A DNA stretch of 64,000 bases from Desulfuromonadales bacterium (lineage in GTDB: Bacteria > Desulfobacterota > Desulfuromonadia > Desulfuromonadales > BM103). The stretch is from the NCBI GenBank assembly GCA_030145195.1, contig JAQYVY010000005.1, positions 1-64,000 on the forward strand. The letters are read 5' to 3'. The notes under the pieces are model-generated. The model did not search any database. It had not been told where the DNA came from and saw nothing but the letters and a program-made list of their open reading frames with translations. Positions 6,910 to 15,953 of this stretch are shown one piece after another; positions within the stretch are counted from its first letter, which is position 1; every line of letters begins with the position of its first letter. The position numbers were made by a program, and so were the translations under genes.

Positions 6910-7686
6910 ATGATTCGTAAAATGGTCAAAATTGATGAAGATAAATGCAACGGCTGTGGTGAATGCGTGCCGTCGTGTGCTGAAGGTGCTATTCAAATTA
7001 TAAATGGGAAAGCCAAACTGGTTGCCGATAAACTCTGTGATGGTTTGGGCGCATGCCTCGGCGACTGCCCACTTGGGGCTATTACTGTAGAAGAACGTGA
7101 GGCCGACGAGTACGATGAGGTCGCAGTGGATGATCATCTTAAAGACATTGGTCGTGAGCCGTTGCCCCATCGTGATGATACACCCGCACCGGTTTCGGGT
7201 GGCTGTCCCTCCGCTGCCGTGCAAAACTTTAAGGCGCCAGCTGGCAGCGGTTGTCCTTCGTCCCGAGCGATGCATTTCGATAAGCCTGCCGCAGAAACTG
7301 CAGGTGACCTTACCTCCCGGCCCTCGCGTCTGGCTCAATGGCCAGTGCAACTGCATCTGGTGCCGCCGACAGCACCTTTTTTCCAGAATGCTGATGTGGT
7401 TTTGGCTGCGGACTGTGCACCTTTCGCCTATGCTGATTTTCAGGAAGACCTGCTCAAAGGCAAGGCGCTTGCGATTGCCTGCCCCAAGCTTGACGATACA
7501 GCCCCTTATGTCGAAAAACTGACCGCAATGATTACCCAGAGCAATATCAAAAGCTTGACCGTGGTCCACATGGAAGTCCCTTGCTGTAATGGGCTGGTCA
7601 TGATGGCCAAGCAGGCCCTCGCGAATAGCGGTCGTGATATCCCTTTTGAAACGGTTTGTATCGGTATCCGCGGCGACAAGAAATAG
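6910..7686 (+). CDS. Two-cluster 4Fe-4S ferredoxin protein with C-terminal domain
   Basis: A 258-residue iron-sulfur protein. Residues 10-60 hold two cysteine motifs, CNGCGECVPSC and CDGLGACLGDC, each followed by a proline or alanine context typical of bacterial 2[4Fe-4S] ferredoxins. A Gly/Pro-rich linker with two GGCPS/SGCPS motifs follows, then an alpha/beta domain with conserved-looking IACPK and EVPCCNG cysteines. Similar ferredoxins are found beside hybrid-cluster protein genes in HcpR regulons (FrdX-type), which would fit the operator at 6816, but no hcp gene is in the window. A good AAGGAG site precedes ATG 6910. It ends before a terminator at 7814. Confidence 0.8.
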   Translation: MIRKMVKIDEDKCNGCGECVPSCAEGAIQIINGKAKLVADKLCDGLGACLGDCPLGAITVEEREADEYDEVAVDDHLKDIGREPLPHRDDTPAPVSGGCPSAAVQNFKAPAGSGCPSSRAMHFDKPAAETAGDLTSRPSRLAQWPVQLHLVPPTAPFFQNADVVLAADCAPFAYADFQEDLLKGKALAIACPKLDDTAPYVEKLTAMITQSNIKSLTVVHMEVPCCNGLVMMAKQALANSGRDIPFETVCIGIRGDKK

Positions 7687-9566: not shown

Positions 9567-10574
9567 CTAATCGTCTGCAAAACAGAGCGCATAATCACTG
9601 CACTTCCCACAATTCGGTGATTTGCACATCACCCCGCCATTGAGTTCACAAACCTGCTTGTAGAGATAACGCTTCCAGCGCATATTTTGATGGTTGGCTT
9701 CTGCCAGCGAGGGAAGATGGCGGCGGATGGCGGCGCTCAGTTCTGGCCGTTCAAACAGCCCCATGGCGACCCAGAGATGGCCGGGGTGGGCGGCGCGGGT
9801 GGCGAGGATATGCGCCAGTCGTACGGACTTGTGGTGGTTCTTGTTGCCTGATTCAACCGGGACATGTGAGAGCAGAATCGCCAGCACCTCGTGGCTGGGT
9901 TCGGGGGGAAGTTCTTCATTCGACTGCGCGTATTGAGTGAGAAATGCGCGATCGAGACCTGGGAAGTAGGCCATCATAAGGTAACTCAGATTGCCATCAT
10001 CCAGCCCGAGAGCGGCAGCCGTATCGTAGGGTTCTTTTGCGGCAACTGCAATCAGGCAGGCAAACAGATGGCGATCTTCCTCTGTGACGTGATCGGGTTT
10101 CACTGTGCCTATAAGCTCGGCATAGATAGAATCTTTTGCCGTCACGCGCGGTCCGTGTTCGGAGGCTTGCGGTAGACTCGCCTGAACCGGAGAGTTGCCG
10201 TTGCGGGCACTTTTGACGGCGGCCTGAAGCGCTTGCGCAGCCAGTTGCGCACAGTAGTCGCGTTCAGCAGGAAGTCCCTGCAAGGCAACATCGAGACGTT
10301 TCGCGTCAATGCTCTGCATATCATCAAGCGTACGACCAACCGTCAGTTCCGCGGCCACGGCGCAGGCAGCCATGGAATAACCACAGCCGAAGACCTGGTA
10401 GCGGACGTCGGACACCCGGCCACCTTCAACCTTGAGGGTGAAGCGTACCGCTAGACGACTGCCGAGCTCTTTTGAGTCCAGACCGACTTCTCCGGTGCCG
10501 TCGGCATCCGCTAAGCTGCCGGCACGGCGTGTGTCTGTCGCCCATTGGCGTATGGTGTCTGAGTAGCCGTTCAT
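9567..10574 (-). CDS. Fusion of NifU/IscU-like scaffold domain and NifQ
   Basis: A 335-residue protein in two parts. Residues about 28-130 resemble the NifU/IscU scaffold: VFGCGYSMAACAVAAELT, the LQGLPAERDYC segment and the AAQALQAAV helix. The second and third scaffold cysteines are kept, but the usual first one (DACGD region) is replaced by DSKELGSR. Residues about 165-333 are a NifQ domain ending in CKSPNCGKCSDYALC, the Cx4Cx2Cx5C motif that binds a Mo-Fe-S cluster. NifQ supplies molybdenum for FeMo-cofactor assembly on NifEN. The gene follows nifE and nifN on the same strand after an 85-base spacer containing a GC-rich repeat. The ribosome-binding site is weak. Confidence 0.85.
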   Translation of the reverse strand: MNGYSDTIRQWATDTRRAGSLADADGTGEVGLDSKELGSRLAVRFTLKVEGGRVSDVRYQVFGCGYSMAACAVAAELTVGRTLDDMQSIDAKRLDVALQGLPAERDYCAQLAAQALQAAVKSARNGNSPVQASLPQASEHGPRVTAKDSIYAELIGTVKPDHVTEEDRHLFACLIAVAAKEPYDTAAALGLDDGNLSYLMMAYFPGLDRAFLTQYAQSNEELPPEPSHEVLAILLSHVPVESGNKNHHKSVRLAHILATRAAHPGHLWVAMGLFERPELSAAIRRHLPSLAEANHQNMRWKRYLYKQVCELNGGVMCKSPNCGKCSDYALCFADD

Positions 10575-13443: not shown

Positions 13444-13459
13444 AGCAAGAGTCCTGCCA
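13444..13459 (-). promoter_or_regulatory. Sigma-54-type promoter for nifE-nifN
   Basis: Read on the minus strand, TGGCAGGACTCTTGC has GG and GC separated by 10 bases as in the TGGCAC-N5-TTGC consensus. Transcription would begin near 13433, about 115 bases before the nifE ATG. Nitrogen-fixation genes are commonly sigma-54 dependent. Confidence 0.7.
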
Positions 13460-13671: not shown

Positions 13672-13687
13672 GGGCACACCCTTTGCT
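13672..13687 (+). promoter_or_regulatory. Sigma-54-type promoter upstream of the nifV leader
   Basis: GGGCACACCCTTTGCT has GG at 13673-13674 and GC at 13685-13686 with 10 bases between, matching the -24/-12 rule. The predicted start is near 13698, about 12 bases before the first leader hairpin. A TATAAT at 13687-13692 overlaps it but has no acceptable -35 element. Confidence 0.6.
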
Positions 13688-13697
13688 ATAATACGAG

Positions 13698-13775
13698 ATA
13701 CAGCAATTTCCGGCAAAGTCGCCGGACTCCGGCAATGAAGCCCAAATCCATAAAAATGGTTTTGGGCTTTTTTTA
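13698..13775 (+). ncRNA. Candidate ANTAR-controlled antiterminator leader of nifV
   Basis: Hairpin P1 is CCGGC (13710-13714), loop AAAGTC, GCCGG (13721-13725). Hairpin P2 is GGC (13731-13733), loop AATGAA, GCC (13740-13742). Both loops are six bases with A at position 1 and G at position 4, the signature of RNAs bound by ANTAR-domain antiterminators. The 3' strand of P2 is part of the 5' arm of the terminator at 13738-13769, so the two structures exclude each other. In Geobacter, nif expression is known to use an RNA-binding antiterminator (GnfR). P2 has only three clear base pairs, which is a weakness. Confidence 0.65.
13738..13775 (+). terminator. Intrinsic terminator in the nifV leader
   Basis: A 14-bp stem with one mismatch (5' arm 13738-13751, 3' arm 13756-13769; outer part AAGCCCAAA/TTTGGGCTT), a 4-base AAAA loop, followed by a T-rich run. 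It lies about 215 bases upstream of the nifV ATG and immediately downstream of the hexaloop hairpins, so it can act as the regulated attenuator. Confidence 0.8.
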
Positions 13776-13825
13776 TTTAGGGGACTGTCCTGAAAAAAAC
13801 GGTTCTATAACCTTAAAAAGATCGA

Positions 13826-13942
13826 GTTAGCCACTAAGACACGAAAAGCTCATTTAACAGAGTAAAAGCGATCATTCTGAGTTCGCAATTTAGATGCTTA
13901 CGGAAACACACAAAGTGCTTACTCCGTGACTTAATGGCTAAC
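13826..13942. repeat. Inverted repeat of the GCCACTAAGACACG type
   Basis: Arm 13826-13843 (GTTAGCCACTAAGACACG) and arm 13925-13942 (CGTGACTTAATGGCTAAC) pair at 16 of 18 positions around an 81-base spacer and end in a T run. This resembles dispersed repeats found in Deltaproteobacteria. It occupies most of the gap between the leader terminator and nifV. Confidence 0.6.
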
Positions 13943-13989
13943 CTTTTTTTGCGATAGGTTCAAAAAACAAACTTGAAACGAGGTGCACA

Positions 13990-15129
13990 ATGTCTGAATT
14001 CAGCAACACAGAGATTATCATCGACGATACCACCTTGCGCGACGGTGAGCAGACGGCTGGTGTCGTCTTCAGTCTCGATGAGAAGAAACGGATCGCCAGG
14101 ATGCTCGACGAAGTCGGTGTTGGTGAACTGGAGTGCGGGATCCCGGCGATGGGCAAAGAGGAGAAGGCGTCGATCAAGGCGCTGGTTGATATGGATCTGG
14201 ATGCCCGATTGATCACCTGGAACCGGGCGGTGATAGCCGATATCCAGGCCTCCATCGACAGCGGTGTACGTGCGGTCGATATCTCCCTGTCAGTTTCTGA
14301 TATCCATATCGAGCACAAACTGCGCAAGAGCCGTGACTGGGTCAAGGAACAACTCAAGGTGGCGCTCGGTTTTGCCAAAGAGCATGACCTCTATGTCTCC
14401 GTCGGCGGCGAGGATGCCAGCCGCGCCGATCTCGATTTTCTGGTCGAGCTGATGGAGATCGCCAGAGGCTTTGGGGCTGATCGCTTCCGGTTCTGCGACA
14501 CCCTCGGTATTCTTGACCCCTTCACGACTTATGACAAGCTTCGCTATCTGGCCAGCCGGGTCGACCTCGACCTTGAGGTTCATACCCATAATGATCTCGG
14601 TATGGCGACGGCCAATGCGATTGCCGGAGTCCGGGCCGGAGCGAAGTTTGTCAATACGACAGTTAATGGCTTGGGCGAGCGGGCGGGCAATGCTGCACTC
14701 GAAGAAGTTGTCATGGCACTGAAACATGCCTGCGGAATTGCGCTGCCGATCGACACCAGCCGCTTTGTCGAACTGTCGAAACTGGTCGGTAAAGCCAGCT
14801 GTCGACCGGTCCCGGAATGGAAAGCTATCGTTGGCGAGAAAGTCTTCTCCCATGAGTCCGGCCTGCATGCCGACGGCGTCCTCAAGTATCCCGGCAACTA
14901 TGAAGGATACGATCCAGCCGAGGTCGGCCTGACCCGGCACCTGGTGATCGGTAAGCATTCTGGAAGTCATGGTCTGAACGCGCGTCTTGGTCAGATGGGT
15001 CTGAAGCTCGAACGGAGAGAACTCGACAGGTTTCTTGACCAGGTGAGGTGTGTCGCCCAAAACAACAAAAGACCTATCTCTGATCGGGATTTGGTTGAAC
15101 TTTATCATGCTCGGCAGAAGGTGGCGTAA
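13990..15129 (+). CDS. nifV: Homocitrate synthase NifV
   Basis: A 379-residue enzyme of the HMGL-like/isopropylmalate synthase family, condensing acetyl-CoA and 2-oxoglutarate to homocitrate, the organic ligand of FeMo-co. It has DDTTLRDGEQT near the N-terminus (metal and substrate site), HTHNDLGMATANA with the metal-binding histidines, and NGLGERAGNA. There is no regulatory domain of the leucine-biosynthesis enzymes, as expected for NifV. The C-terminal region carries HESGLHADG and GKHSGSHG. ATG 13990 has GAGG upstream. The adjacent nif operon and the leader upstream support the assignment. The GNAT gene starts two bases after the stop. Confidence 0.95.
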   Translation: MSEFSNTEIIIDDTTLRDGEQTAGVVFSLDEKKRIARMLDEVGVGELECGIPAMGKEEKASIKALVDMDLDARLITWNRAVIADIQASIDSGVRAVDISLSVSDIHIEHKLRKSRDWVKEQLKVALGFAKEHDLYVSVGGEDASRADLDFLVELMEIARGFGADRFRFCDTLGILDPFTTYDKLRYLASRVDLDLEVHTHNDLGMATANAIAGVRAGAKFVNTTVNGLGERAGNAALEEVVMALKHACGIALPIDTSRFVELSKLVGKASCRPVPEWKAIVGEKVFSHESGLHADGVLKYPGNYEGYDPAEVGLTRHLVIGKHSGSHGLNARLGQMGLKLERRELDRFLDQVRCVAQNNKRPISDRDLVELYHARQKVA

Positions 15130-15131
15130 CC

Positions 15132-15953
15132 GTGATCTCAATTAATTTGGCGCAAAAATCAGACTGGGATCAATTTTATTTGCTGGCGACGGCTGAAGGT
15201 TGGAGAGTACCGAAAATTGAACGCCTGCTTTTCGCTGGATCTTGGTCCGATTTTGCCTGGGCTCTCAATATTGACGGCAGGTTTGGTGGTTTTGTCACGG
15301 CGGTCCCGCATGAGCGGAGTGGTTGGATTGGAAACTTGCTCGTTCCTCAATCTCTGCGAGGGCAGGGCTATGGCGTCCAACTCTTTCGCGCGGCACTTGA
15401 TAGCCTGTCTGGTCAAGGGCTCTCGACGTGTTGGCTCACGGCCTCAGAGTCAGGACTGCCCATTTATCAAAAAGCCGGGTTTGTTTCTGTCGATCAGGTG
15501 GAACGCTGGGTTTCTCCAGAAAGGCAAGGCTCTGAGACGGGTGTAGAGACAAAAACTGATCCGACCGAAAAGTTATGGCTCTCCGATCAAGGTGCGTGGG
15601 AGGAGGAACGAAGCTCTTTGCTGGAGGCTCTTGCCAGTCATGGTCAGACTTTCGCTTGCGAGGACTCGGTGGCGTTTTTGCAAAGGGATATTGATGTGCA
15701 GATCATCGGCCCTTGGTATTCTCCGTCGTGCTTCCCAAGAGCCAACCGGCAGTTGTTGCAAAGGATCTTGTCGGCAGCTGATCCTGATGGCGAAATCGTT
15801 GTCGACATCCGTGCCTCATCCCCCATCCGTCAACTCATTGCTGCTGCCGGTTTTGACCGCGCTGGATCTACATCCTTGATGAGAAAGGGTGCTCCTGCAC
15901 CTGATGGTTTGAGCACAATGGTGTCGTTAGCCAGTCTGGGGAGTTTTGGCTAG
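15132..15953 (+). CDS. GNAT-family acetyltransferase, nifV-linked
   Basis: A 273-residue protein. The N-terminal half is a GNAT domain with the acetyl-CoA binding motif LVPQSLRGQGYGVQLF and IYQKAGF. The C-terminal half (about 150-270) appears to be a second, diverged GNAT-like unit ending in PIRQLIAAAGFDRAGS. The substrate is unknown. It begins with GTG at 15132, two bases after the nifV stop, and must be translated together with nifV, implying a role linked to nitrogen fixation or its regulation. It is convergent with the Slp-like gene. Confidence 0.8.
   Translation: MISINLAQKSDWDQFYLLATAEGWRVPKIERLLFAGSWSDFAWALNIDGRFGGFVTAVPHERSGWIGNLLVPQSLRGQGYGVQLFRAALDSLSGQGLSTCWLTASESGLPIYQKAGFVSVDQVERWVSPERQGSETGVETKTDPTEKLWLSDQGAWEEERSSLLEALASHGQTFACEDSVAFLQRDIDVQIIGPWYSPSCFPRANRQLLQRILSAADPDGEIVVDIRASSPIRQLIAAAGFDRAGSTSLMRKGAPAPDGLSTMVSLASLGSFG

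Follow-up and report, generated by a model that had tools for sequence, protein, structure and literature searches.

A probable ANTAR-responsive antitermination leader behind a predicted σ54 promoter upstream of nifV in a Desulfuromonadales bacterium

Organization of the nifV locus

The window considered here is a stretch of 64,000 nt from the genome of a Desulfuromonadales bacterium. It contains nifV, the gene for homocitrate synthase, which is preceded by a leader with a promoter, two hairpins and a terminator and is followed by a gene for a GNAT-type acetyltransferase. The features of the locus are listed below; R1 denotes a covariance model built from nifV leaders.

13672..13687, plus strand: predicted σ54-type -24/-12 promoter, GGGCAC-ACCCT-TTGCT (sequence; spacing kept in relatives; rpoN in the genome)
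13709..13726, plus strand: P1 hairpin, TCCGGC[AAAGTC]GCCGGA, 6 bp, loop with A1 and G4 (fold; R1 match)
13731..13742, plus strand: P2 hairpin, GGC[AATGAA]GCC, 3 bp, loop with A1 and G4 (fold; conserved stem)
13737..13774, plus strand: intrinsic terminator, whose 5' arm shares the loop and 3' strand of P2 (fold)
13820..13965, no strand assigned: dispersed repeat copy separating terminator and nifV (68-100% identity, five genomic places)
13990..15129, plus strand: nifV, homocitrate synthase (TIGR02660, 536 bits, above cut-off)
15132..15953, plus strand: GNAT-type acetyltransferase gene (weak GNAT matches; start 2 nt past the nifV stop)

The GNAT gene is probably co-transcribed with nifV. A GNAT homolog is found behind nifV in 22 of 29 loci from relatives, and the GNAT-family gene is a conserved nifV partner. 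The sole gene upstream of the leader, nifE, is divergent, so that a terminator on the plus strand is plausible solely as an attenuator. On the minus strand, a σ54-like element (TGGCAGGACTCTTGCT, 13444-13459) lies 5' of nifE and is followed by neither an ANTAR module nor a terminator. Behind nifEN, also on the minus strand, the frame at 9567-10574 joins a domain like the N-terminal part of NifU to a further C-terminal region; its product scores below the curated NifU cut-offs.

The first-pass annotation of this DNA extended the regulatory element from 13672 to 13989. The part from 13672 to 13774 is the switch; the remainder to 13989 lies outside it and includes the repeat copy at 13820-13965, which is MITE-like, with inverted ends (TTAGCCACTAAG...CTTAATGGCTAA). 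Insertion of this repeat 3' of the terminator accounts for an unusually long distance from the element to nifV (246 nt, versus mostly 45-105 nt in relatives) and leaves the switch untouched.

Structure and folding of the leader

The -24/-12 element claimed for this leader, GGGCAC-N5-TTGC, is present at 13672-13687 with the fixed spacing of σ54 promoters, and the genome encodes RpoN (449 bits); transcription from this predicted promoter would begin near 13698. ANTAR targets are defined as a pair of stems, each 3 bp or longer and closing a six-base loop with A at the first position and G at the fourth (Ramesh et al. 2012, PMC3369931). P1 and P2 have this form: the hexaloops AAAGTC and AATGAA lie where they were first described, each with A1 and G4, and are carried on stems separated by a linker of 4 nt. 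The G4 bases are G13718 in P1 and G13737 in P2, the second of which also forms part of the base of the terminator stem. The terminator stem comprises 14 bp in two blocks with a single U-U mismatch between them and is followed by a T run of 7; that the 3' strand of P2 forms part of its 5' arm is confirmed in the sequence and in the folds.

The whole leader is predicted to fold into P1 plus the terminator (-31.7 kcal/mol; z = -5.5 versus shuffles), while a leader ended before the 3' arm of the terminator folds into exactly P1 and P2 (-15.0 kcal/mol). In folds of the growing transcript, P1 and P2 persist up to 13765, and P2 is displaced by the terminator at 13770. Forcing P2 to form on the complete leader carries a penalty of 9.4 kcal/mol relative to the terminator conformer, as predicted for RNA without protein. 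P2 and the overlapping terminator are thus mutually exclusive in the predicted folds.

The arrangement is rare. A search for its shape, defined as P1 of at least 5 bp, P2 of at least 3 bp, A1 and G4 in both loops, and an overlapping terminator, gives one match in the window and matches in 2 of 200 dinucleotide shuffles, both strands being searched. At the gathering thresholds no Rfam family matches anywhere in the 64,000 nt.

Conservation among relatives

nifV is present in 65 of 98 related genomes, and the order of P1, P2 and terminator recurs 5' of orthologous nifV with differing loops and P1 stems. Loop pairs of relatives include AAAGTT/AACGAA, ATTGCT/AACGTC, AAGGTC/AATGTT, and AGCGCC/AACGAA; their P1 stems include tccggc/gccgga, accgc/gcggt, atcagc/gctgat, and aggacac/gtgtctt. 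When leaders are scanned without prescribed loop letters, nearly all well-placed candidates have A1/G4 loops. Among the leaders of 30 relatives, loop position 4 is G without exception, loop position 1 is A with a single exception, and a few further leaders have G at position 1; loop positions 2, 3, 5, and 6, the linker and the P1 stem vary among orthologous leaders. Loss of the hexaloops in related genomes, which had been named as evidence that would speak against the element, is therefore not seen; the loops are kept while other positions vary.

An alignment of 24 leaders has 94% paired cells and shows two-sided changes in 5 of 6 P1 pairs, figures that are inflated for P1 because the seed leaders of R1 were picked by shape. 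The P2 stem is near-invariant in the same alignment (GGC/GCC) and therefore provides little information on P2 pairing. The three base pairs of P2 had been regarded as a weak point of the leader: the count holds, but the worry is unfounded, as GGC/GCC is the form conserved in relatives.

A covariance search of the kind that the first-pass annotation had proposed for nifV leaders, run here with R1, yields matches. R1 matches the studied leader at 13709-13744 (45.6 bits), and in a search of 95 related genomes it has matches at E <= 0.01 in 45; in 17 genomes that did not contribute to the seed, the match is on the same strand as nifV and 47-257 nt upstream of it. The motif is thus kept in orthologous leaders, both in the alignment and in genomes outside the seed. 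All 45 R1-positive genomes carry nifV and an ANTAR protein. Across the 95 genomes, an ANTAR protein is encoded in 63 of 63 that have nifV, and nifV in 0 of 14 that lack an ANTAR protein, counts that are not independent since relatives share ancestry and many assemblies are incomplete.

Of 30 leaders, 27 have a σ54 promoter 18-35 nt 5' of P1, compared with 1% of shuffled stretches. The spacing between promoter and P1 is kept, and promoter, P1, P2, and terminator therefore form one conserved unit. The -12 element shares bases with a perfect extended -10 (TGCTATAAT, 13684-13692), so that a nearby σ70 start is possible; the leader would then act as described, with the -24/-12 match incidental. This is unlikely: the upstream sequence offers no good -35, the other leaders inspected show no TATAAT, and it is the -24/-12 element that the 27 relatives have kept.

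The predicted stability of the protein-free terminator conformer, 9.4 kcal/mol better than P1 with P2, is what would be expected if the leader were a constitutive attenuator, in which the terminator imposes a fixed reduction of nifV expression and the hairpins have no protein partner. A plain terminator has no need of G4, a near-fixed A1 or the P2 stem, all of which are kept across the order, and the leaders co-occur with ANTAR proteins, so that a constitutive attenuator is very improbable. In the ANTAR reading the signal and the protein are assigned by inference, which leaves some room for another factor (a riboswitch, a different RNA-binding protein or a small RNA) acting on the leader, with the hexaloops coincidental. 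Such a factor is extremely improbable given the lack of an Rfam match at gathering thresholds, loop and stem rules that are those of ANTAR targets (PMC3369931), and an ANTAR protein in every genome that bears the element.

The candidate regulator

The absence of an ANTAR protein, which would have counted against an ANTAR-responsive leader, is not the case here: the genome encodes a single one, the REC-ANTAR response regulator P0001 (G000 C67:7993-8592; PF03861, 70.9 bits), whose closest solved relatives are the antiterminator Rv1626 and EutV. P0001 retains the EutV residues R142, K143, K149, E160, Y164, M172, and R175 and differs at four EutV contact positions (K147R, R168Q, N173D, and R177S); the roles of the RNA-contact residues of EutV are described in PMC8934654. 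Its identity to the nif-linked ANTAR regulators compared is 60-71% for most and only 49% for one. The ANTAR gene maps to within 15 kb of nifH or nifV in 31 relatives; in the studied genome it does not adjoin nif genes. This separation and the four substituted contact positions count against the ANTAR reading.

Other leaders in the genome

NifX-type genes and nifB flank a second R1 match (28.6 bits), and a further module precedes nifH on the same contig:

L245 (G000:C71:26500-36500), 1311-1580 and 7259-7335: ANTAR-like modules of nifH and nifB

The nifB module consists of GCGATAC[AAGGTC]GTATCGC and GGC[AATGAA]GCC followed by a terminator. The nifH leader has a σ54 promoter, a terminator and the loops GCCGCT and GATGAA; because both loops begin with G, R1 missed this leader, which was recognized on direct reading of the sequence. 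3' of this first module, a second P2-like loop, GGGC[ATTGAC]GCCC, runs into another strong hairpin, giving two terminator-like hairpins in tandem. Similar modules are found 5' of nifH in relatives. A genome-wide pattern of P2 plus a T run is too loose and returns in part GCAAAGACGC repeats; a stricter version gives about 30 matches, mostly due to chance, which include nifV and nifB.

The nifE leader (minus strand, 13413-13390) was considered as an ANTAR module and rejected, with a score of 12 bits, which is chance level, and no evident terminator. With modules at nifH, nifB, and nifV and none at nifE, the predicted gate spans the first three genes and apparently leaves out nifEN.

Leaders without a terminator

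The nifV leaders of L049, L051, L040, and L059, from a Pelobacter-like clade (family f4, genus g11), have a σ54 promoter and P1/P2-like hexaloops without a terminator; L123, near 2400-2510, is listed with this group. Several of these leaders read GAGGCGCCATG at the start region, a sequence able to pair with the strand of P1. For L049 and L051, folding predicts that the nifV start region pairs with this strand via GGCGCC; the predicted folds of L040 and L059 differ from these. A tentative and rather doubtful explanation is that the ANTAR target has been rewired within the order from termination to translation, such that binding would free the start site and activate translation. Translational repression has been described for actinobacterial ANTAR RNAs (PMC8164766), whereas the Pelobacter-like leaders would be activated.

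Comparison with known ANTAR systems

The nif antiterminator that has been studied is GnfR of Geobacter. GnfK and GnfR reportedly control nif genes in Geobacter sulfurreducens (Ueki and Lovley 2010, Nucleic Acids Research 38:7485). The likeness to the system proposed here is one of type: in both, an RNA-binding response regulator acts on nif expression after initiation, in addition to σ54 control. Geobacter-type nifV leaders have a P2-like loop and a terminator without a clear P1, whereas P1 is present here; in L124, L127, L130, and L143, a single clear P2-like hexaloop overlaps a terminator behind a σ54-like promoter. G. sulfurreducens itself is not among the 80 loci of one contig scan. PMC10746287 cites the GnfR study of Ueki and Lovley, and gnfR is annotated as the nitrogen-fixation response regulator GSU2822 (PMC7962754).

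In Pelobacter carbinolicus, which belongs to the same broad bacterial group, Ramesh et al. 2012 (PMC3369931, Fig. 9B) name three nitrogenase-related units as ANTAR targets and propose an ANTAR nif regulon. The dual A1/G4 hexaloop motif in nif units is common to both cases; the earlier work is a prediction in another species, whereas promoter, terminator and order-wide conservation are documented here for nifV. The nifV leader is a further case of the ANTAR control of nif genes already described in related bacteria.

The eut system of Enterococcus faecalis is not known to have a σ54 promoter. The EutV-controlled eut leaders share with the nifV leader the dual A1/G4 hexaloops and the terminator overlapping P2, and EutV has the same REC-ANTAR fold (PMC3369931, PMC8934654). 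They differ in serving the ethanolamine pathway rather than nitrogen fixation and in their linker, which is 5-12 nt compared with 4 nt here; a linker just below the range of the eut leaders counts against the ANTAR reading of the nifV leader.

Proposed mechanism and implications

It is highly probable that the region is an ANTAR-responsive transcription-antitermination leader governing nifV and the GNAT gene, with RNA binding predicted by analogy to known targets. The first-pass annotation had proposed control of these two genes by antitermination requiring both σ54 and an ANTAR protein, which the folds, the conservation, the promoter spacing and the co-occurrence with ANTAR proteins now support. 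As proposed, σ54 RNA polymerase would initiate near 13698, and the nascent RNA would fold first into P1 and P2. Without active ANTAR regulator, the terminator at 13737-13774 would invade P2 and transcription would stop about 215 nt before nifV. An active, presumably phosphorylated, REC-ANTAR protein would contact both hexaloops as a dimer via the G4 bases, and dimer-bound P2 would be held, allowing read-through into nifV and the GNAT gene. The binding of the loops by a dimer, the phosphorylation trigger and the read-through outcome are modeled on the ANTAR literature (PMC3369931, PMC8934654), and control would presumably be in the direction of activation. Nitrogen limitation would be the presumed signal, judging from the genes that are controlled.

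These findings confirm and extend a known picture rather than overturn it. They indicate that in this order homocitrate supply (nifV), nitrogenase (nifH), and cofactor synthesis (nifB) are doubly gated, by σ54 at initiation and by ANTAR control during elongation. Given a tight covariance model and a clean two-state leader, the regulon can readily be mapped and tested; the more interesting aspect is the variation around the leader, from Geobacter-type leaders lacking a clear P1 to the Pelobacter-like leaders lacking a terminator.
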